IMG/VR virus record: IMGVR_UViG_3300023180_004895
Location: 1 to 20,963 of that record
DNA: 20,963 bases
Origin: a virus
Reading direction: 5' to 3' (one strand)
The position numbers and the translations under genes were made by a program. Of the stretch, positions 10,209 through 19,986 are shown one piece after another. The notes beneath the pieces are model-generated. The model saw only the letters and a list, made by a program, of their open reading frames with translations, was not told where the DNA came from and made no database searches. Every line of letters starts with the position of its first letter. Position 1 is the stretch's first letter.

Positions 10209-12182
10209 CTATACTTCGCAAGTGTCATTTGAACAAAACTTGGTTCCCGTTCCGCCTTCATTTGTTTCAATTCGTTGGATTGGGGTGACATTTTTTATCA
10301 TGTCCTCGTATTGTTCTTTGGTGATTGGCTCATATGGAGCCTGCTCGTATCCGGTTTCTTCATAGCGAAGAAAAGATACGGCCTTGAGACGAGTCTCGTA
10401 CATCTCCAATGCATCTTTGATTTGATGTGCTTCTTCGGGCTTGAATGTAACGGTGATTGATACTGAATTATCGGCCCAATAGTGCTGATATTGAGCGGCA
10501 ATCTCCAACTGCTCCCACATGCTTACGTCACGCTTTCCTTTCACAAAGTGTGGCTCTTTTACCGGAAATTCAACACAAAGAGTGTTTGGAGAGTACTTGT
10601 CCTCCTCAATGCGATAACCTGCCTCACGAAGCGGCTGGATAAGCTGAGAGTCCTTCGCAAAGCGAATGCGACGGATGTAGTACTCGTCTTCTGGGAAGTG
10701 GATGCCCGGAGTTGATCCATTAAGCAGCGACACGGTGCCCGATGGCTTGATTGAAGTTGTTCGAACCGATCTTGGAATACAAAGCCAGTCTGAATATTCT
10801 TCGTCAAGCTCTTTAACAAATTCATAAGCATTGTCGCACCACTTGTATAACTCACGACGTCCAAACTTATTGAAAGCTTGGACCACGCCGGTTTGGGACA
10901 AACCGATTCGGCGGTTTTTAAGCATAAGAGCGTTGGTCTCCGGCCAATGGGTATTTGCAAGCGTTACGGTCTTTCCATAAAGATATGCAATTTTTAGGGT
11001 TCTCAGATAATCCTCGTATGTATCATGCTTAGCGGGATAAGTTTCCACAAGGCAGCAAAGCTCGCCATCTTCCAATTGCTGCTCAACGCATGGATTGAAG
11101 CCCATAACCTTAAGATCATCGTCACGATATCCGTCCTTCATTCGTCCACGAGTTCTTGCATTCTCAAGCCAAATGTAGCCGGGCTCTCCATTCTTTTGTG
11201 ATTGCTCAGCGTGCCAAGTGTAATCCATTCCAACCTTCGCTTCAAAAGAATTGTTCGATCCCCAGCGATGAGAGTATAGCTTCTCTTGATCGTTCTTCAT
11301 TGTAAGATATTGCATGTCATCGTGCTGACCCAAAGCAAGAGCAGCAGAACGACGTACATTGCCTGCAACAACACAACGACCAATAAGGTTTTCAGTGTCA
11401 ACAATTGAAACCGAATCAATTTCTTTGCCGATAAGCGACGTGTAAAGTTCTTTAAGCGAATCATGTAGTTCCTTTAGCGGGCCATATCCCGAAGCTGTTC
11501 CTCCGAAGCCTTTGATTTCCTCTCCAGCGCCTCGAATAACCGAGTAGTCAAAGATGGGAATTTTTTTGCCGAAGAAAAATCCGTCGAGAAGGATTTGGAC
11601 CGACTTGACCCATCCTTCGCGAGAATCGGAAATAGTATATAGTTCTTCTGTGTATTGTGGTTCTCGGATAGTGCATGTACCTGCACCGAGAGTATCAAAA
11701 CCAACTCCAATACCAACCATGAGAGCATCCATCATCCAAGCGAAGATGTAACCACCCTTTGTTGAGATCTCACGAGTTGAGCGGAAAGCGCAGTTGAAAA
11801 GACCGGCACCTGTTCGTTCGTAAATGAACTTGGTTCCCATCATCCAAAGACCACGGCCCGGTGGTGTCCACTTGAGAGTGAAGAGACGCTCGTAGGCTTC
11901 TTTGGCAGTTCTCTGGGCTTTTTGATCATTCCATTCCAAACCAAGGGCGTGGACGTGACGTTTCTGAATATCAAACATACCTTCGATGACACGACGACAG
12001 GTTTGATACCATTCTTCTGTTCCTTCCGCTCCTTCTGTGAATTCGGAGAGGCGGCGAGCATAGGTTCGTTTGAATGTGATATATCCAACCGGTCCCCATG
12101 GAACTTCTCTATCTTTGTATTGACTGATGAAATTGTCCGAAAGCTTGAACTTGCGAACATTCACCTCGCTTATCTTAAACAT
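10209..12182 (-). CDS. nrdJ: Adenosylcobalamin-dependent (class II) ribonucleotide reductase
   Basis: A single-chain, B12-dependent reductase making deoxyribonucleotides, probably of the ribonucleoside-triphosphate (L. leichmannii) type. Visible are FNCAF (C131, redox cysteine), NPCVEQ (C365, thiyl-radical cysteine, and E367), the following C376/C377, the loop PSGTVSLLNGSTPGIHFP, and a C-terminal CSNDTC (C650, C655) that would relay electrons to the active site. Its 657 residues are somewhat shorter than bacterial RTPR (about 740), as common in phage versions. No small (beta) subunit is nearby, as expected for class II. SD AGGAG precedes ATG 12182; it follows the helicase by 12 nt. It implies the host makes or imports cobalamin. 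Confidence 0.93.
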   Translation of the reverse strand: MFKISEVNVRKFKLSDNFISQYKDREVPWGPVGYITFKRTYARRLSEFTEGAEGTEEWYQTCRRVIEGMFDIQKRHVHALGLEWNDQKAQRTAKEAYERLFTLKWTPPGRGLWMMGTKFIYERTGAGLFNCAFRSTREISTKGGYIFAWMMDALMVGIGVGFDTLGAGTCTIREPQYTEELYTISDSREGWVKSVQILLDGFFFGKKIPIFDYSVIRGAGEEIKGFGGTASGYGPLKELHDSLKELYTSLIGKEIDSVSIVDTENLIGRCVVAGNVRRSAALALGQHDDMQYLTMKNDQEKLYSHRWGSNNSFEAKVGMDYTWHAEQSQKNGEPGYIWLENARTRGRMKDGYRDDDLKVMGFNPCVEQQLEDGELCCLVETYPAKHDTYEDYLRTLKIAYLYGKTVTLANTHWPETNALMLKNRRIGLSQTGVVQAFNKFGRRELYKWCDNAYEFVKELDEEYSDWLCIPRSVRTTSIKPSGTVSLLNGSTPGIHFPEDEYYIRRIRFAKDSQLIQPLREAGYRIEEDKYSPNTLCVEFPVKEPHFVKGKRDVSMWEQLEIAAQYQHYWADNSVSITVTFKPEEAHQIKDALEMYETRLKAVSFLRYEETGYEQAPYEPITKEQYEDMIKNVTPIQRIETNEGGTGTKFCSNDTCEV

Positions 12183-12194
12183 TTAGTACTCCTA

Positions 12195-13550
12195 TTACTT
12201 GTTTAACAAATGTGAATATTTATTTTTAATGTGTTCTTTGGCATTAGCGACAGGGTTGGCACGCTGTTGTTCCAACTCGTCTTGATCTTCAAGGATCTTT
12301 ATGCAGACATTCGCTGTATCCATAAAAATGGGTAAAACCAGACCATCGGGACCATTACGGTTCTTCGCAAGGAAGATGCGACCCATGTTGGCTTTCTTGT
12401 CTTCAATTGTTCTTGATACAGTGAAAATAAAATCTGCGACAAAGCATTTGTTGAATGCCTCCGAGATTGCTTCCATCGTGATGACTTCAGCATTTAGCCC
12501 AGACCTATTGGTTTGTGAAGCGGTCCAGATTGGACATTCCATGGATTGGGCAATCCCACGGAGTTCTTCGTAAAGTGATTCTAACTCGTGTCGCTTCTCG
12601 GAACGACTCTTGACTGGTCTCAATAAGTCAGCATAGTCCACGATAACCATATCGGGATGAATACCTCTCTTTTTAAGTTTCTCGAGGTGATTTTTGATTG
12701 ATTGAGTTGTTGCTGACTTAGTGGGATATTCTTTAACTATGAGCGAGCCTTCAACATCAGAGATTTGGTCAAATATCTCCTCTTTGTTGTGCATCAGATC
12801 GTTAAGCGGAATGCCAGTCATACAAGAGTCATAACGAGAACCGACAACGGTGTCTGATAATTCTAATGTGTAGTGAACGACAGTTTTGCCTTCTTTGAGA
12901 GCTTGGGTTCCTAAATGGACAAGGACCATTGATTTACCAGCGCCAGTAGGAGCGATAACCACACCAAGTTCGCTACGCCCAAGGCCACCTTTACACAGCC
13001 CATCCATTCGTTCCCATCCTGTTGAGATTGGGTTTCTTGCTTTGATCTCGAACCTACGTTCAAAATCAGCCAGCCAGTCATGGCCGAAGTTGTTATCAGA
13101 ACCAAGTTTAAGAGCATCATTAATTACCTTTGAAATTTCGTCAAATGACGATGATTTTAGAAGACCAACTGACTTCATCATCGCTTGCTTTAGAACTTGC
13201 TTGCGACAGAAATCCATTGCTGTATCTTTAACAAATTGAGCGCCTTCGACCTTTCCGGAGAGGACTCGTGTGTAGTAATCTCGCACTTGCTTTTGAACGG
13301 CATCATCGTATTCTGTGATGCCAGATTTGAAGATTGTTGCGAGGATTTCATAAGTAGGATGAACTCCATATTTGTGACGATAATCTAAGATTGTCTGTAC
13401 GAAAACTTGAAGATATTTAACCTCAAGAAATTGAATGTCGAGGACCTCTGTGATTTGATCGCAGAAGGGGCGATCCTCAAGCATAAGCTGGCATAGTTTT
13501 TCTTGAAAACTCTTACCGAACTTTGAAAAGTTGTCTGTTTGTGTTTGCAT
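12195..13550 (-). CDS. Replicative DNA helicase, DnaB/gp41-like
   Basis: Hexameric 5'-3' helicase of the RecA-fold superfamily 4, 451 residues. An N-terminal helical region (residues 1-150, the primase-interacting part in DnaB) precedes the ATPase core with Walker A APTGAGKS (200-207), Walker B MVIVDYADLL (D305), and a sensor-type TASQTNRSG (343-351). There is no zinc or primase domain, so a separate primase is needed and is not seen in this window. ATG 13550 with CGGAG upstream follows a perfect-consensus promoter, and this is the first gene of the longest transcription unit. Confidence 0.93.
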   Translation of the reverse strand: MQTQTDNFSKFGKSFQEKLCQLMLEDRPFCDQITEVLDIQFLEVKYLQVFVQTILDYRHKYGVHPTYEILATIFKSGITEYDDAVQKQVRDYYTRVLSGKVEGAQFVKDTAMDFCRKQVLKQAMMKSVGLLKSSSFDEISKVINDALKLGSDNNFGHDWLADFERRFEIKARNPISTGWERMDGLCKGGLGRSELGVVIAPTGAGKSMVLVHLGTQALKEGKTVVHYTLELSDTVVGSRYDSCMTGIPLNDLMHNKEEIFDQISDVEGSLIVKEYPTKSATTQSIKNHLEKLKKRGIHPDMVIVDYADLLRPVKSRSEKRHELESLYEELRGIAQSMECPIWTASQTNRSGLNAEVITMEAISEAFNKCFVADFIFTVSRTIEDKKANMGRIFLAKNRNGPDGLVLPIFMDTANVCIKILEDQDELEQQRANPVANAKEHIKNKYSHLLNK

Positions 13551-14303: not shown

Positions 14304-15257
14304 TTATGTTGCAATTCTTCGAAACGCCGCATAAAGTTCGTCAAATCTATAAGCCACAAATCCATCTGAAATTGTCATCTTTTTTATGTCCGTTATGTTG
14401 ACCTTTGGCTGGAATTCTGTTACATTAAACATTATCTGCTTTAAGGTTAGAGGCGATATAATTGGATTATATAGTTGCATGATACCATAATTAGATTGAA
14501 TTACAGAAGAATTGTCGATAATCTTTTTATGACAAGAGAGAGCCTTTGGTACTTGTCGACAGTGTTCAACAAGAGACTGACAACTTTGACTTTCTGACTC
14601 AGCCATAAAAGGAAAACGTTTTTTAATTGTCCCAAGCCCAACACGAGGAACGCCTTTAATGTTGTCCGATGCATCCCCTGCGATTGCTCGAGCAAGGGCA
14701 AAATTATTGGGATGAATACCATATTCAGAAACAACACTATCTTCGGTAACAATCGTGTCTTGAATTGGGCGGTAAAGAGTGGTCTCCTCGTCGCAGAGTT
14801 GGAGGAAGTCTTTATCAGACGAAACAACGAGTTTACTACGTCCTCTGTAATGATTTGATCTTGCGAGAACAGCGACCACATCATCTGCTTCAATTCCGTC
14901 AACCATGATTTGTATAACTGGCATTTCATTAAGATACTCAACTAACCTATAAAATTGATATGCTTTATTTTGTTCTTGTTCCTCGGGGGATAGTTCGTAC
15001 ATTCTTCGGTTAAAGCGGACCGGAGAGCGCCCTTCTTTGTAGTTTTTGTTTTGGGCTTTGCGCCGCTGGCTTCCGCCTTGTCCGTCCCAACAGACTACAA
15101 TTTCATCTGGTTGGAACATCCGGACAACCTTCTGGAGAGATTTGAGGAATCCCATACATCCTCCGAGTGGTCGCCCTTTGGAGTCGATCGTTGGGTTTAC
15201 GATGTAACTCCGGATGAACATATTCAGTCCATCAATTAGCATTATGTCATGTTTCAT
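14304..15257 (-). CDS. 5'-3' exonuclease / flap endonuclease (RNase H-like)
   Basis: Metal-dependent FEN-family nuclease that removes RNA primers and 5' flaps, 317 residues, the size of phage T4 RNase H. Acidic metal ligands are all visible: IDGLN (D9), VCWDG (D58), GIEADD (E123, D125, D126), SSDKD (D148, D150) and GDASDN (D195, D198). A helix-hairpin-helix follows at residues about 200-216 (IKGVPRVGLGTIKKRFP), which binds duplex DNA. ATG 15257 has AGGAGG upstream and overlaps the nuclease gene by 11 nt. It works with the polymerase and SSB in lagging-strand maturation. Confidence 0.93.
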   Translation of the reverse strand: MKHDIMLIDGLNMFIRSYIVNPTIDSKGRPLGGCMGFLKSLQKVVRMFQPDEIVVCWDGQGGSQRRKAQNKNYKEGRSPVRFNRRMYELSPEEQEQNKAYQFYRLVEYLNEMPVIQIMVDGIEADDVVAVLARSNHYRGRSKLVVSSDKDFLQLCDEETTLYRPIQDTIVTEDSVVSEYGIHPNNFALARAIAGDASDNIKGVPRVGLGTIKKRFPFMAESESQSCQSLVEHCRQVPKALSCHKKIIDNSSVIQSNYGIMQLYNPIISPLTLKQIMFNVTEFQPKVNITDIKKMTISDGFVAYRFDELYAAFRRIAT

Positions 15258-15831
15258 TGTGCCTCCTATTAATGAAATCTTTCAACTGTTTGTTGAGATC
15301 TTTTTGTTTGTCTAACAGTGTGCCATGTTCTTCTAAAAATTTCCAAGATATTTTTGGATCATTTTGTTTGGTACTATGGTCAACAGATTTATCAAGCTCT
15401 TGTATATCTTCAATAGCAAAGCCGCCTTTTATCAAATGTTCACGCATCAGTTCGTATTTTCTGGTGCCGATCCTGCCGGCATGGCCGTCAATAACCTTGT
15501 TTTCTATCTTTGAAAAGAAAGGCTTAAGATCATCCCAAGTACAAATAATGTGATCGGTAAATTGGAAGCCGTCACCTTTCTTGTTAAATTTGGAAAAGAT
15601 AAATACAGAATTCTGTTGCCAATCTTTTATCTTAGCTATACCAAAATCTCTAGCAGTTGAGACTTGATTTTTTCTTGAATCGCATGATTTACATTCAACA
15701 AAATGCTTTTGTCCATCTATTACAATCCAACCATCGGGTTTGTATTTGTTTCCTCTGCCGCTTGGATCTGGTGTTAAGCCAAAAATTTGAATTTGTTTAT
15801 TCTCACGAGAATCATCTTGAGTGGATCTCAT
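15247..15831 (-). CDS. PD-(D/E)xK nuclease, restriction-endonuclease-like
   Basis: A 194-residue protein with a recognisable PD-(D/E)xK core: KPDGWIVID (D33), then HFVECKS (E46, K48), a D-x12-E-x-K spacing seen in many restriction enzymes and phage nucleases. A following FGIAKIKDWQQNSVFIFSKF segment fits the next helix and strand. The C-terminal 100 residues are helical and basic, with no known DNA-binding motif recognised. ATG 15831 has a strong SD (AAGGAGG); the longer frame to 15867 would start before it. It could be a Type II-like restriction enzyme, a host-DNA degrading nuclease or a recombination nuclease. No methyltransferase is adjacent; one lies at 1773-2711. Confidence 0.75.
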   Translation of the reverse strand: MRSTQDDSRENKQIQIFGLTPDPSGRGNKYKPDGWIVIDGQKHFVECKSCDSRKNQVSTARDFGIAKIKDWQQNSVFIFSKFNKKGDGFQFTDHIICTWDDLKPFFSKIENKVIDGHAGRIGTRKYELMREHLIKGGFAIEDIQELDKSVDHSTKQNDPKISWKFLEEHGTLLDKQKDLNKQLKDFINRRHNET

Positions 15832-15857
15832 TGTTCCTCCTTGCTTTTCATATATAT

Positions 15858-15886
15858 AATATAACATGCCCCAAGACGGTTGTCAA
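15858..15886 (-). promoter_or_regulatory. sigma-70 promoter for the nuclease/exonuclease unit
   Basis: Minus strand TTGACA (15886-15881), 17-nt spacer, TATATT (15863-15858) with TGT before the -10. It is overlapped by the inverted repeat at 15865-15894. Confidence 0.85.
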
Positions 15887-15894
15887 GGGGCATG
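15865..15894. repeat. Inverted repeat spanning the -35 and spacer of the nuclease promoter
   Basis: Perfect 8-bp arms CATGCCCC and GGGGCATG (15865-15872 and 15887-15894) separated by 14 nt containing the whole -35 hexamer. It could be an operator, or a hairpin ending the upstream unit; the sequence after it on the minus strand is AT-rich but has no pure T run. Confidence 0.7.
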
Positions 15895-15921
15895 CGTTAT
15901 TTTTATGAATTTTATTTGATT

Positions 15922-16119
15922 TTATTCTTGTTTTTCAAGTTCAATCATCGCTTTAACAATAGCGGCGGCTTCCTTCTTTACCTCACGGAGAACCTTGCGG
16001 GCTCTCGTCCCTGCTGCTCGGTTCCCTTTCTGCAAGTTCTTCAGGAGATCCACCTCGATAGATAAAAGTAGCTCCTTTAGATCTTCGTATTGTTTTTGAA
16101 TTTTTTCTGCGGATTGCAT
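15922..16119 (-). CDS. Histone H1/Hc1-like small basic DNA-binding protein
   Basis: A 65-residue, lysine/arginine-rich helical protein. Residues 14-42, with LKELLLSIEVDL and KGNRAAGTRARK, then EVKKEAAAIVK, match the Hc1-type histone H1-like proteins of chlamydiae and of several free-living bacteria ('L..sie.Dl.Ka.kGNkaAgtRvRk...elkk.a'). Those proteins bind and condense DNA. It lacks the long Ala/Lys/Pro repeat tail of chlamydial Hc1. ATG 16119 is supported by AAGGAG eight bases upstream. It overlaps the preceding gene by 137 nt in another frame. A role in compacting phage or host DNA is inferred. Last gene of the ssb-recA unit. Confidence 0.72.
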   Translation of the reverse strand: MQSAEKIQKQYEDLKELLLSIEVDLLKNLQKGNRAAGTRARKVLREVKKEAAAIVKAMIELEKQE

Positions 16120-16321
16120 AATAATACTCCTTATAAGTTTCAGGTTTATCTAAATATTTCAGTTCTGCTAATTTTGTCCATTCTATTTCCATGGATTCAA
16201 TATCCAAAACAGGTATATATTTGGTATGTCCTTCGGTTACTCGATCAAGGAGTCGGTAGGGCATCTCTTCGAATCCATCGAAGCAAACGATTGTCCCCAT
16301 TGGCCATAGCGTTTTTGCCAT
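15983..16321 (-). CDS. Small hypothetical protein, 3' third overlapping the Hc1-like gene
   Basis: A 112-residue protein of unknown function. The first 65 residues look like a folded small beta domain (GTIVCFDGF, YRLLDRV, TKYIPVLDIESMEIEWTKLAEL). The last 45 residues, coded within the overlap with the Hc1-like gene, are basic then polar (RRKNSKTIRRSKGATF, ending SRDESPQGSP) and likely disordered. ATG 16321 has a strong AAGGAG at good spacing. The first gene after the terminator downstream of recA, so its expression probably depends on readthrough. The long overlap suggests either an elongated C-terminus or a true overlapping gene pair. Confidence 0.7.
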   Translation of the reverse strand: MAKTLWPMGTIVCFDGFEEMPYRLLDRVTEGHTKYIPVLDIESMEIEWTKLAELKYLDKPETYKEYYYAIRRKNSKTIRRSKGATFIYRGGSPEELAEREPSSRDESPQGSP

Positions 16322-16365
16322 AATAACTCCTTATGTAAATAGTTCTTTGATGTTCAATACTCCTT

Positions 16366-16395
16366 AAACAAAAAACCGCCCCCCGAAGGGAGCGG
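16366..16395 (-). terminator. Intrinsic terminator downstream of recA
   Basis: On the minus strand CCGCTCCC, loop TTCG, GGGGGCGG (16395-16376; one T-G pair), followed by six T. An ultra-stable UUCG tetraloop hairpin located 27 nt after the recA stop codon. Confidence 0.93.
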
Positions 16396-16422
16396 CCAAA
16401 GGAGAAACATAAAATGAAAAAT

Positions 16423-17532
16423 TCATTCACCTATGTCGATATCACTTCCATCGTTCTCATATTTCTCAATGATCTCTTTGTCCATGATGTCATACACCGC
16501 AGCACGGAACTCATCGTTCTGTAACTGCTCAATCCACTTGGATGCTTGAAACTTAAATTCTTTTCCATCCGCACCGACAATCGTATACCACGACCCACCT
16601 CGCTTCAAACGCTCAGTGCCAGATAATTTAATCGCTTCAAGCCATGACTCTTCGTCCTGAATACCAACATCATCTCCCCACAAGATTTTGAAGGTACAAG
16701 TTCGACCGAAAGAGCCAAACCGAGATTTTTCAACTTTAACCTTGGTCTCGGAACCAATTCGAACACCCTTTTCGTTCTCAACAAAGGAAGCCTTTGCTTT
16801 TCGCTTTGTAAGCCAAATACGAAGAGAACAGAAGTACTCGATAGCTTTACCACCGGGAGCAATAAACGGAGTCGTCATTGCTTCCGCAACATTAGAAGTA
16901 ATGTTGGTTTTAAGCTGGTTAATGAGAACCATCGTTGATTGTGAATCCGCGAGCGGAATCGTCAACTTTGGAAATGCCTTAGCAAAGATACGAGGCTTAA
17001 CGGCCATAGACGATTGTGGATTGAAATCACCTTCGATATCCTTCTCCGAGGCTGTGGCAGCGATTGAGTCCCAGATAAACAAAAACTGAGTGTCAGGATA
17101 ATTTGTCATTAGGGTCTCGATCTGCTTGAGAGTCTTCTCAACAGAAACTGCCTGAACGTAAAGCAACTCGCCAATATCAACACCTGCTCTTGTGAGAAAT
17201 TCAGGGTCAATTGCCGACTCAGCATCAAAGTATACAACTTGCATACCTTTCTTCTGAGCATTGGCAGCAATTTGAGTTGCCATGAAAGATTTACCAGATG
17301 CCGAGAGGCCAGCAATCTCAGTAACCTTTCCGACGGGAATACCCGCCATTTTGCCTTTGCAGATAATTGAATCCAGCCAACGAGAACCGGTTGGGATCCA
17401 GTCCTTTACTGCTGTTGGATTATCTTCTTCGAGACTATGGGCTACGTTCAAACCCGTGGTCTTGTTTAGAAGAGACTTCATTGAATTCAAATCTAATTTA
17501 CCTGCTTTTGCCATTTTTAATACTCTTCCCAT
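16423..17532 (-). CDS. recA: RecA/UvsX-like recombinase
   Basis: ATP-dependent strand-exchange recombinase, 369 residues. Walker A GLSASGKS (residues 75-82), the catalytic glutamate in FDAESAIDP (E105), Walker B FLFIWDS (150-156), and the DNA-binding/allosteric region with VLINQLKTN and APGGKAIEYF. Size and layout lie between bacterial RecA and T4 UvsX. The start is ATG 17532, six bases after GGAGG; the frame extends upstream to 17559 but that part lies in the terminator hairpin. The acidic C-terminus (ENDGSDIDIGE) is typical of RecA regulation. It shares a transcription unit with SSB, its usual partner, although a terminator separates it from upstream genes. Confidence 0.95.
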   Translation of the reverse strand: MGRVLKMAKAGKLDLNSMKSLLNKTTGLNVAHSLEEDNPTAVKDWIPTGSRWLDSIICKGKMAGIPVGKVTEIAGLSASGKSFMATQIAANAQKKGMQVVYFDAESAIDPEFLTRAGVDIGELLYVQAVSVEKTLKQIETLMTNYPDTQFLFIWDSIAATASEKDIEGDFNPQSSMAVKPRIFAKAFPKLTIPLADSQSTMVLINQLKTNITSNVAEAMTTPFIAPGGKAIEYFCSLRIWLTKRKAKASFVENEKGVRIGSETKVKVEKSRFGSFGRTCTFKILWGDDVGIQDEESWLEAIKLSGTERLKRGGSWYTIVGADGKEFKFQASKWIEQLQNDEFRAAVYDIMDKEIIEKYENDGSDIDIGE

Positions 17533-17544
17533 ACGGGGCCTCCA

Positions 17545-17576
17545 TAAAAATAAAGGCACCTCTTACCCCGTGCCTT
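17545..17576 (-). terminator. Intrinsic terminator between the Gly-rich peptide gene and recA
   Basis: Minus strand stem AAGGCAC/GTGCCTT (17576-17570 with 17559-17553), 10-nt loop starting GGGG, followed by TATTTTT. It is homologous to the hairpin at 19055-19078 including the loop. Read from promoters upstream it would attenuate recA expression. Confidence 0.85.
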
Positions 17577-17796: not shown

Positions 17797-18987
17797 TTAA
17801 GCTGCTGCTTTTTCTCTCATGGATTCTATAGTAGAGACCAAGCGGTCATAATTATTGCCAAAAGAGCCACAAATTTTATCTCTAAATAAAGAGAATCTAG
17901 CAGGATCTAAAACAGTGTTGGTATAACTGTGAAAGTAGTTAGATTTACTTTCCATAGTGCCGTTTTCTTCATCTTCAACAAATTGTTTGTTTGACTCTGA
18001 GTCTAATTTTGTCACAATTTGCTGAACGAAAGAAAAAAGCTCTTCATCGTTAATAGAATGCTCTTTTATCGCATTATTAAGAGACCAATGCACAATCAAA
18101 TATGCAAACAAAAAGCGTGTTTTAATTTTTGAATTATGGTGATTTTTGTGAGCACGCGCAACAGTTCTCAAAGAAGTAAAGAAATTATTACTGATATAGC
18201 TCAGTGAATCAGTATTGTAATAATCATCATTCCCAACTCCATCTTTATAAAACTTGGTTAGACTAGAGCAGCTTGTGTCTGGGTTACTTTCATTTGTCAT
18301 TTCAGTAACCATCTTGGCTATTCTACTAATTACTACACAATCATCCATTCTACCTCTACTGGCGCCTGATATTTGCTTGAACACATCTTCAAATTTATTT
18401 GATTGTTCTCGGGTCCAATGAGCAATATAAGAATTAATAGCATTTCTTTTTTCTTGCTCATTTAATGGCTGGCCGTCATTGATATCAATAAAGATTTCGG
18501 CCAAATCAACACCACGTTCTTCTACGATTCGCACTGGAATCTTGCATTTTAAGAGAAACCTTCTTTGCAGCGCTTGAGGCAATTTGTTAAACTGCGTGTT
18601 GTTAAATATCTCACCGTTTATCTTGCCAGTAAATCCAAACTCATTGTTGATGAATTTAGCAATAGTACAGCTTCGATGCTGACCATCCAAGCAAGCAAAT
18701 TTAACAGTTTGTGGCTGGTCATCCAAATTTCTTTCTTTGTCAGCAATAGGAGCAAGAATAATAGGAGTATATACTCGTCCTTTGAAAATATTGGAAATAT
18801 ATTTGCACTTTTGAGGGCTAGACCATGCACCAAAGCGCCTTTGGTATCTTGGACTGCAATATTGTCTCTGTGTTCTTTGTCCGGGTTGTAAGTTTTGACA
18901 CGTTATTTCGTTGTAAATCGAAATGTTTATCTCGGACGGACAAAAGTCCTCAATAAATTGTGTAATTGTCATATTATTATCATTCAT
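17797..18987 (-). CDS. DUF262/ParB-fold (GmrSD N-terminal-like) protein
   Basis: A 396-residue protein with the DUF262 signature: basic RYQRRF and a W (residues 47-55), a KYISNIFKG helix, TPIILAP strand, then LDGQHRSCTIAKF (DGQHRS 101-106), equivalent to the family DGQQR motif that binds or hydrolyses nucleotide. DUF262 is the ParB/sulfiredoxin-fold domain of type IV restriction enzymes such as GmrS, but the C-terminal DUF1524 HNH nuclease motif is not visible, so this is a stand-alone form. SD GGAGAAG precedes ATG 18987. Its place between ssb and recA is unexpected; it could act against host defence, against competing phage, or in DNA metabolism. Function is not provable from sequence. Confidence 0.8.
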   Translation of the reverse strand: MNDNNMTITQFIEDFCPSEINISIYNEITCQNLQPGQRTQRQYCSPRYQRRFGAWSSPQKCKYISNIFKGRVYTPIILAPIADKERNLDDQPQTVKFACLDGQHRSCTIAKFINNEFGFTGKINGEIFNNTQFNKLPQALQRRFLLKCKIPVRIVEERGVDLAEIFIDINDGQPLNEQEKRNAINSYIAHWTREQSNKFEDVFKQISGASRGRMDDCVVISRIAKMVTEMTNESNPDTSCSSLTKFYKDGVGNDDYYNTDSLSYISNNFFTSLRTVARAHKNHHNSKIKTRFLFAYLIVHWSLNNAIKEHSINDEELFSFVQQIVTKLDSESNKQFVEDEENGTMESKSNYFHSYTNTVLDPARFSLFRDKICGSFGNNYDRLVSTIESMREKAAA

Positions 18988-19111: not shown

Positions 19112-19879
19112 TTATTTACCCTGAAGTCGTTGCATAGCTTCTAGGACAGCATCACCGCCTGAGTTATACTTTTCAACTCCAGCACTATCATCATCGGAGG
19201 CACTCGTACTGCCAGCTAGATAGTCGCTCAGAATAACCTCCAACTCTTGAGTTGTCTTCTCGTCGAATAGAGTCGAGAAGTCAGGAACAGATTCAAGAAG
19301 AGTAGCGCAGTCTGCAACCGCATCGTCACACAATACGGAGGGACGACGACGTGGCTTAAGAGTTGTCTTTGGAAATGAGCCGGGAGTTCCGGGAACATCG
19401 TAATTCAAGACAATATCGGTGCCTGCTTCTGGGTCTGTAATATCGCCGTAGTCAGGATCGAGAACGTATCCAAGCAGAGTCTGATAAGCAGTCTTACCAT
19501 AAGCCCATACTTTTACGCCTTCGTCTTCTTGACCTCGGACCAAGATTGGAGAGTAGTAACGATTGCGTGCAAAAAGCTGTTTAGCTTCTTTCTTCGCTAC
19601 TTCATCATTGTTGTCAACGCCTTCACGCCACAACTTGGAAGCAAAGTCACAAATTGGACATTCGCCGCCATGATTCTTTTTGGGACAAAGAAGTCCCGGG
19701 TTTTTACCAACATTGTAGTGGAAAAAGTATTCCTTGAACGGATCGCCATCCGCAGTTGGTAGAATTCGTACAGTTTGGTCGCCTTGTTGAGGACGCCATT
19801 TTGTGTTGCTTGATTTCTTCTTACCTCCATTTTTAGATTGTTCGAGTTTTGCTCGCATTGCTTCTAGATCAATAGCCAT
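19112..19879 (-). CDS. gp32-like single-stranded DNA-binding protein
   Basis: A 255-residue T4 gp32-type SSB. It has a basic N-terminus (KNGGKKKSSNTKWRP), where gp32 has its cooperativity region, an OB-fold core starting QTVRILPTADGDPF, and a zinc site H54-C65-C74-C77 (HYNVGKNPGLLC, ECPICD), the H-C-C-C set of gp32. The C-terminus is acidic/Ser-rich (ASDDDSAGVE), as in SSBs that recruit partners through an acidic tail, and ends in a short helix. ATG 19879 has AAGGAG upstream after a 78-nt leader. First gene of the unit leading to recA; it coats ssDNA for helicase, polymerase and recombinase. Confidence 0.92.
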   Translation of the reverse strand: MAIDLEAMRAKLEQSKNGGKKKSSNTKWRPQQGDQTVRILPTADGDPFKEYFFHYNVGKNPGLLCPKKNHGGECPICDFASKLWREGVDNNDEVAKKEAKQLFARNRYYSPILVRGQEDEGVKVWAYGKTAYQTLLGYVLDPDYGDITDPEAGTDIVLNYDVPGTPGSFPKTTLKPRRRPSVLCDDAVADCATLLESVPDFSTLFDEKTTQELEVILSDYLAGSTSASDDDSAGVEKYNSGGDAVLEAMQRLQGK

Positions 19880-19957: not shown

Positions 19958-19986
19958 ATTATAGCATATTTTGACGTGTTTGTCAA
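19958..19986 (-). promoter_or_regulatory. Perfect-consensus sigma-70 promoter for ssb
   Basis: Minus strand TTGACA (19986-19981), 17-nt spacer, TATAAT (19963-19958) with TGC before the -10. It is placed right after the terminator at 19997-20029. A leader of about 70-75 nt follows before the ssb SD. Confidence 0.92.

Follow-up and report, generated by a model that had tools for sequence, protein, structure and literature searches.

A core-only Hc1 (PF07432) protein encoded between UvsX and a 5'-3' exonuclease in a marine-type tailed phage

What could a 65-residue protein of the histone-like Hc1 family do in a tailed phage? The question was raised by an ORF in a stretch of 20,963 nucleotides (IMG/VR virus record IMGVR_UViG_3300023180_004895, positions 1 to 20,963, referred to as the window), the source of which is a marine-type tailed phage. 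In an earlier note the product was described as a histone H1/Hc1-like protein in the same unit as SSB and RecA, with the proposal that it could compact injected or packaged DNA, silence the host nucleoid or modulate recombination. Family membership, expression and possible function were analysed here, and the features of the locus are collected in Table 1.

The Hc1 gene and its missing tail

The ORF starts with an ATG at 16119 on the minus strand and its stop ends at 15922 (product MQSAEKIQKQYEDLKELLLSIEVDLLKNLQKGNRAAGTRARKVLREVKKEAAAIVKAMIELEKQE); the coordinates given by the earlier note hold, provided that this strand is read, and the plus-strand reading of 15922-16119 is interrupted by internal stops. 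The GGAG core of its Shine-Dalgarno sequence is present in 11 of 11 close relatives, and dN/dS was about 0.10 among nine close sequences, which represents purifying selection. The Pfam profile search named by the earlier note as a check on its family claim gave a full-profile match to PF07432 (E=4e-13; 49.4 bits, the cut-off being 23.5; profile positions 2-56 of 57), and this claim is upheld. With a bacterial-only Hc1 profile built here, the ORF scored 59.2 bits, against a top score of 13.4 bits for 2000 residue shuffles of the ORF and at most 2.4 bits for every other frame of the window, so that the match lies far above chance and a chance match or over-annotation was excluded. The gene is thus confirmed as real and correctly assigned to its family. 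A PHROGs search with the protein gave no significant family, and an Rfam search gave no match anywhere in the window.

Table 1. Features of the window around the Hc1 gene
Feature	Coordinates	Strand	Remark
Hc1 (PF07432) core protein	15922..16119	minus	65 aa, without basic C-terminal tail
Shine-Dalgarno AAGGAG	16132..16127	minus	7 nt 5' of Hc1 ATG
Partner ORF (MAKTLWP...)	15983..16321	minus	112 aa, upstream of Hc1
ACTATTTA box (ACTAWTTA class)	16336..16343	minus	22 nt 5' of partner ORF start; putative late-type promoter element
Intrinsic terminator after UvsX	16374..16397	minus	parts Hc1 pair from SSB/UvsX unit
UvsX/RecA-type recombinase (PF00154)	16423..17559	minus	
gp32-type single-strand DNA-binding protein (SSB; PF08804)	19112..19879	minus	
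Consensus sigma-70-type promoter (12 of 12)	19958..19986	minus	5' of SSB
Sigma-70-type promoter (TTGACA, 17 nt, TATATT) in CATGCCCC...GGGGCATG dyad	15858..15886	minus	just after Hc1
5'-3' exonuclease (PF02739)	14304..15257	minus	conserved neighbour downstream of Hc1
DnaB-like replicative helicase	12195..13550	minus	
Class II (B12) ribonucleotide reductase (RNR)	10209..12182	minus	

For chlamydial Hc1, the N-terminal domain is reported to dimerise, the lysine-rich C-terminus is the DNA-binding part, and nucleoid compaction results when the protein is made in E. coli (PMC2848022). Only positions 8-55 of the 121 positions of the HctA equivalog model (NCBIfam NF051889), corresponding to its N-terminal part, were aligned with the phage protein, at 17 bits where the equivalog cut-off is 100, and no full-length match was obtained. 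The phage protein is therefore like Chlamydia HctA in this homologous N-terminal domain (model 8-55) and unlike it in being without the lysine-rich C-terminal DNA-binding domain (PMC2848022); it stops right after the core, and a lysine-rich, acid-free C-terminal domain is absent. Its net charge is +3, composed of +7 in residues 31-49 and -2 on each side (residues 50-65, -2). Because the DNA-binding tail is missing, H1-type compaction is not transferable by homology, and the proposed H1-like compaction of DNA found no support on this ground, the HctA match being limited to the N-terminal domain. No Pfam match of the phage protein to the winged-helix domain of eukaryotic linker histone H1 was obtained, and no winged-helix H1 fold was present among the Foldseek matches listed, the predicted fold being a two-helix hairpin. 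Judged by sequence, the name 'histone H1-like' overstates the conservation, which covers the Hc1 core alone and not the DNA-binding tail.

The monomer was modelled with AlphaFold2 from 84 viral and bacterial sequences as a helical hairpin (helices 2-31 and 34-64, pLDDT 95.5). No match at E<0.001 was found for this model by Foldseek against the PDB or by a BFVD structure search, the latter being uninformative, and no solved structure of an Hc1 relative was found by sequence search; the nearest Foldseek neighbours, designed helical homo-oligomers and T4-type small terminases, are generic hairpins. The GN[KR].AG.R.RK core of the PF07432 family is found in the window protein. The 84 sequences show no variation at N33, A36, G37, R39 and R41 and have only K or R at position 34; a basic residue occupies each of the positions K27, K42 and K48 in 95% of them or more. 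The conserved basic residues gather at the hairpin turn of the model, which suggests a polyanion as ligand.

Relatives in phages and bacteria, and the host

Relatives were collected from IMG/VR by an exact-peptide scan (18 relatives) and by an alignment scan (at least 80 loci with Hc1 relatives). Each of the 50 viral records tested (50/50) was found to have a single Hc1 gene scoring above the Pfam cut-off, at least one per record being expected because the records were chosen for having Hc1. In a maximum-likelihood tree of 148 proteins, based on only 65 columns with unsettled bootstrap and on the best 80 of at least 277 bacterial members, the window protein was placed within a 45-row all-viral clade (support 97/89). 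The labels virus and bacterium switch at least three times across the tree, which indicates several transfers between viruses and bacteria. By sequence, the window protein is part of a large branch of the family that is confined to phages and has hardly been described.

In bacteria, core-only Hc1 proteins are frequent among Bacteroidota, Balneolota, Ignavibacteria, Chlorobiota and Planctomycetota; the bacterial members found here were mostly tail-less, with K/P/A-rich tails in a few members from Bacteroidia, and no paper on core-only Hc1 proteins of Bacteroidota was found in the literature accessible to the search. The window protein resembles these bacterial core-only PF07432 proteins (about 57-70 aa, GN[KR].AG.R.RK, mostly without a long basic tail), whereas the all-viral clade is set apart from them by a typical GNK(S/A)AG(V/T)RARKGLR and an (I/L)VK stretch in the C-terminal helix.

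Divergent Hc1 homologues, unnamed or unannotated, are also present in Flavobacterium phage immuto (gp196, cultured, annotated as 'hypothetical'), in Prevotella Lak megaphages and in the huge uncultured phages LR756500, LR745206 and LR756502. With the window protein as query, LR756500 was the only one of these annotated phages to be found (51% over 39 residues). Their gene neighbourhoods differ from that of the window, the immuto gene following groES-groEL, and immuto, Lak-A1 and LR756500 show little or no Shine-Dalgarno use, unlike the window lineage. In moraphages, which are likewise large aquatic tailed phages with PF07432 proteins, histone H1-like (Hc1) proteins were reported in 2025 and compaction for packaging was proposed for them too (PMC12619734). 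Moraphage hosts were predicted to be mostly Bacteroidota (PMC12619734), and the window lineage, set apart here from moraphages by their published description, differs from Bacteroidota phages in its sigma-70 promoters and Shine-Dalgarno use. Phage Hc1 proteins are thus already published, and what is new is the 45-row all-viral clade, its apparently non-Bacteroidota hosts and the late-promoter link described below. A contig of 83,794 bases (L142/L049) from the Prochlorococcus single-cell genome AG-409-L21 is viral and carries Hc1, with 0% Shine-Dalgarno use and 28% G+C; it resembles Bacteroidota phages and may represent a co-sorted phage, not a cyanophage.

Bacteroidota have unusual promoters and make little use of Shine-Dalgarno sequences. 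In the stretches read, Shine-Dalgarno-like starts amounted to 5% in immuto and 0% in Lak-A1 versus 54-73% in the window and its relatives G004 and G015, and sigma-70-type promoters numbered 1 and 0 in immuto and Lak-A1 and 6, 32 and 14 in the window, G004 and G015, respectively. Shine-Dalgarno sequences precede 37 of 43 Hc1 genes in the 45-row clade versus 10 of 25 in other viruses (p=0.0001). The hosts of the all-viral clade are apparently outside Bacteroidota. Close cultured relatives were not found, the RNR, UvsX and DnaE matches all having less than 60% identity and being scattered over hosts, and no tRNAs were present as a host clue in the contigs of the relatives.

Gene neighbourhood, promoters and timing of expression

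The order SSB, UvsX, partner ORF, Hc1, 5'-3' exonuclease, helicase and RNR is kept in the relatives, with the other genes varying. For the partner ORF, no Pfam or PHROG match was obtained. In each of the close relatives, its frame stays open past the Hc1 ATG and runs, as the +2 frame, through approximately the first 45 codons of Hc1. In the overlap, dN/dS was 0.12 for Hc1 and 1.14 for the partner frame, and synonymous changes of Hc1 were not suppressed, so that the overlap looks passive and a selected double-coding overlap was excluded.

Two inserted genes lie near the UvsX-Hc1 block, namely one for a GmrSD_N-domain (DUF262-like) protein (17797-18987, minus strand), found elsewhere only in locus L014, and one for a protein that by eye is nuclease-like (15247-15867, minus strand), in no relative examined. 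In the larger sister group of the phage Hc1, the gene lies near PrkA, PhoH and SpoVR, and in immuto right after groEL. PrkA kinase and SpoVR are normally stationary-phase or sporulation genes. Phage-borne PrkA kinase, SpoVR and PIN-PhoH were seen at 34 loci (L104-L162; median -4.3 kb to +0.6 kb of Hc1), together with an unannotated protein of 433 aa that by eye resembles a divergent chaperonin; PrkA and SpoVR co-occur in the Ralstonia jumbo phage RsoM2USA (PMC8504454).

The terminator after UvsX is strong and is kept in nearly all relatives with varying stem sequence. Because of this terminator and of a promoter-like box unlike that of SSB, Hc1 probably lies outside the SSB/UvsX transcription unit; of the statement that Hc1 is in the same unit as SSB and RecA, the proximity stands and the shared unit is not supported. 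SSB, helicase, polymerase and many small genes have TTGACA-N17-TATAAT promoters (32 in the 73-kb relative G004 versus 0.15 expected), and no sigma-70-type promoters were found 5' of the structural-module genes in G004 or G015. The sigma-70-type promoter just after Hc1 serves the next gene, not Hc1. This promoter with its dyad, CATGCCCCTTGACA(N)nGTCTTGGGGCATGTTATATT, is repeated (window 15858-15900, minus strand; L100 12226 and 12853; L101 10234, 10784 and 11423) before variable genes and looks like a shared operator/promoter cassette travelling with inserted genes.

The Hc1 pair (partner ORF and Hc1) has a box of a different type. ACTAATTA and ACTATTTA are among the top enriched 8-mers upstream of structural-module genes in a set without the Hc1 pair. 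ACTAWTTA was found upstream of the tail sheath gene in 3 of 3 contigs and also of tail tube and head-tail adaptor genes, and it shows a strand bias of 41 on the gene strand versus 3 on the other strand. It precedes 13 of 58 structural-module ORFs versus 14 of 231 others, of which 5 are from the Hc1 pair, with a p-value (0.0005) that is descriptive because the data from which the W of the consensus and the counts were derived overlap with those used for the test. Of 13 sequences of the Hc1 pair, 12 have ACTAWTTA at -22/-23 and one has ACTACTTA instead, and the box is kept in L101 though an inserted gene has replaced the terminator and the flank differs. The gene following Hc1 in G004, with 36% identity to a G015 structural-module gene, also has the box. 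A T4-type late box (TATAAATA) was considered and rejected because most contigs show no enrichment of it 5' of genes, and a late sigma factor was not identified. Since the ACTAWTTA box is common to the Hc1 pair and the structural genes, Hc1 is likely a late gene lodged in the replication module and made with the tail proteins, as far as promoter-like sequences tell; by terminator read-through from UvsX, it could be expressed earlier too. Short late-box genes of the structural module in L189 (10036-10317) and L181 (42-272) encode K/R/A/P-rich or basic proteins (MKVKQKRLYAKRQAKLAAEAAK... and MGKSFKRYKLRKKLEAQ..., respectively), possibly further DNA-handling proteins.

Possible functions

The explanation preferred here, tentatively and at somewhat less than an even chance, is that the protein is a core-only Hc1 which is made late, self-associates and binds phage DNA that has just been made, ahead of or during packaging. 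The hairpin would self-associate like its homologous counterpart at the N-terminus of chlamydial Hc1, and the resulting oligomer, with many basic turns on display, would bind DNA through the folded core instead of a disordered tail. Its expression would be late, together with that of the tail and head-tail genes, as the common promoter-like boxes suggest, and the protein would act on newly replicated phage DNA and coat or condense it before or during packaging. Counting against this explanation, DNA binding by the sole characterised relative depends on the tail that the phage protein is without, the hairpin is of a generic fold, several non-structural ORFs also have ACTAWTTA upstream, and Hc1 lies among replication genes, in a context that is not uniform across phage lineages.

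A first rival is an accessory role in replication or recombination: the position of Hc1 between UvsX and the 5'-3' exonuclease, fixed in all close relatives, would fit a protein that binds phage DNA with gp32 and UvsX during replication. Such a role is nevertheless judged unlikely, as the conserved terminator parts Hc1 from UvsX, its promoter-like box is of another class, and in other phage lineages Hc1 does not adjoin recombination genes. A weaker case can be made for a protein without DNA binding, in which the hairpin scaffolds a phage protein, perhaps the partner ORF, and the Hc1 name misleads. The homologous HctA domain is described as dimerising, not as DNA-binding (PMC2848022), many of the generic or designed helical hairpins nearest by Foldseek are homo-oligomers, and Hc1 is always paired with the partner ORF among the close relatives of the window clade. 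This is held to be improbable: the most conserved positions are basic, which a polyanion ligand would explain more easily than a structural role would, and the partner ORF was not recovered beside Hc1 in other phage lineages.

An action on the host, by binding or silencing of its nucleoid or by mixed oligomers with host Hc1 that disturb host chromatin, is likewise given a low probability. The nucleoid compaction in E. coli mentioned above (PMC2848022) and the bacterial phyla with core-only Hc1 speak for it, as does lambda NinH, a small phage protein resembling the nucleoid protein Fis (PMC7166090); NinH is a precedent, like the phage Hc1 in resembling a bacterial nucleoid protein and unlike it in belonging to an unrelated family. 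However, the phage Hc1 is without the compaction tail and has a late-type box, not the sigma-70 promoters of the presumed early genes, and the sigma-70 and Shine-Dalgarno use of the lineage is unlike that of Bacteroidota phages, so that an Hc1 to be mimicked may be absent from the host. Of the proposals in the earlier note, an early silencing of the host nucleoid and a modulation of recombination become less likely, and a late role near packaging becomes more likely. Compaction of injected or packaged DNA, also proposed there, loses its basis as H1-type compaction by homology.

The broader form of the late packaging explanation, in which a widespread phage-only, late, tail-less Hc1 coats or condenses DNA for packaging or in the capsid in non-Bacteroidota hosts, is considered doubtful. 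To our knowledge, tailed phages are generally held to package their DNA without histone-like proteins; if true, this Hc1 would be a tailed-phage counterpart of virion DNA-condensing proteins. An Hc1-core family conserved across many large aquatic phages, including the cultured immuto, together with a predicted late promoter, raises the directly testable question of whether a chromatin-type protein is used late in infection by some phages.
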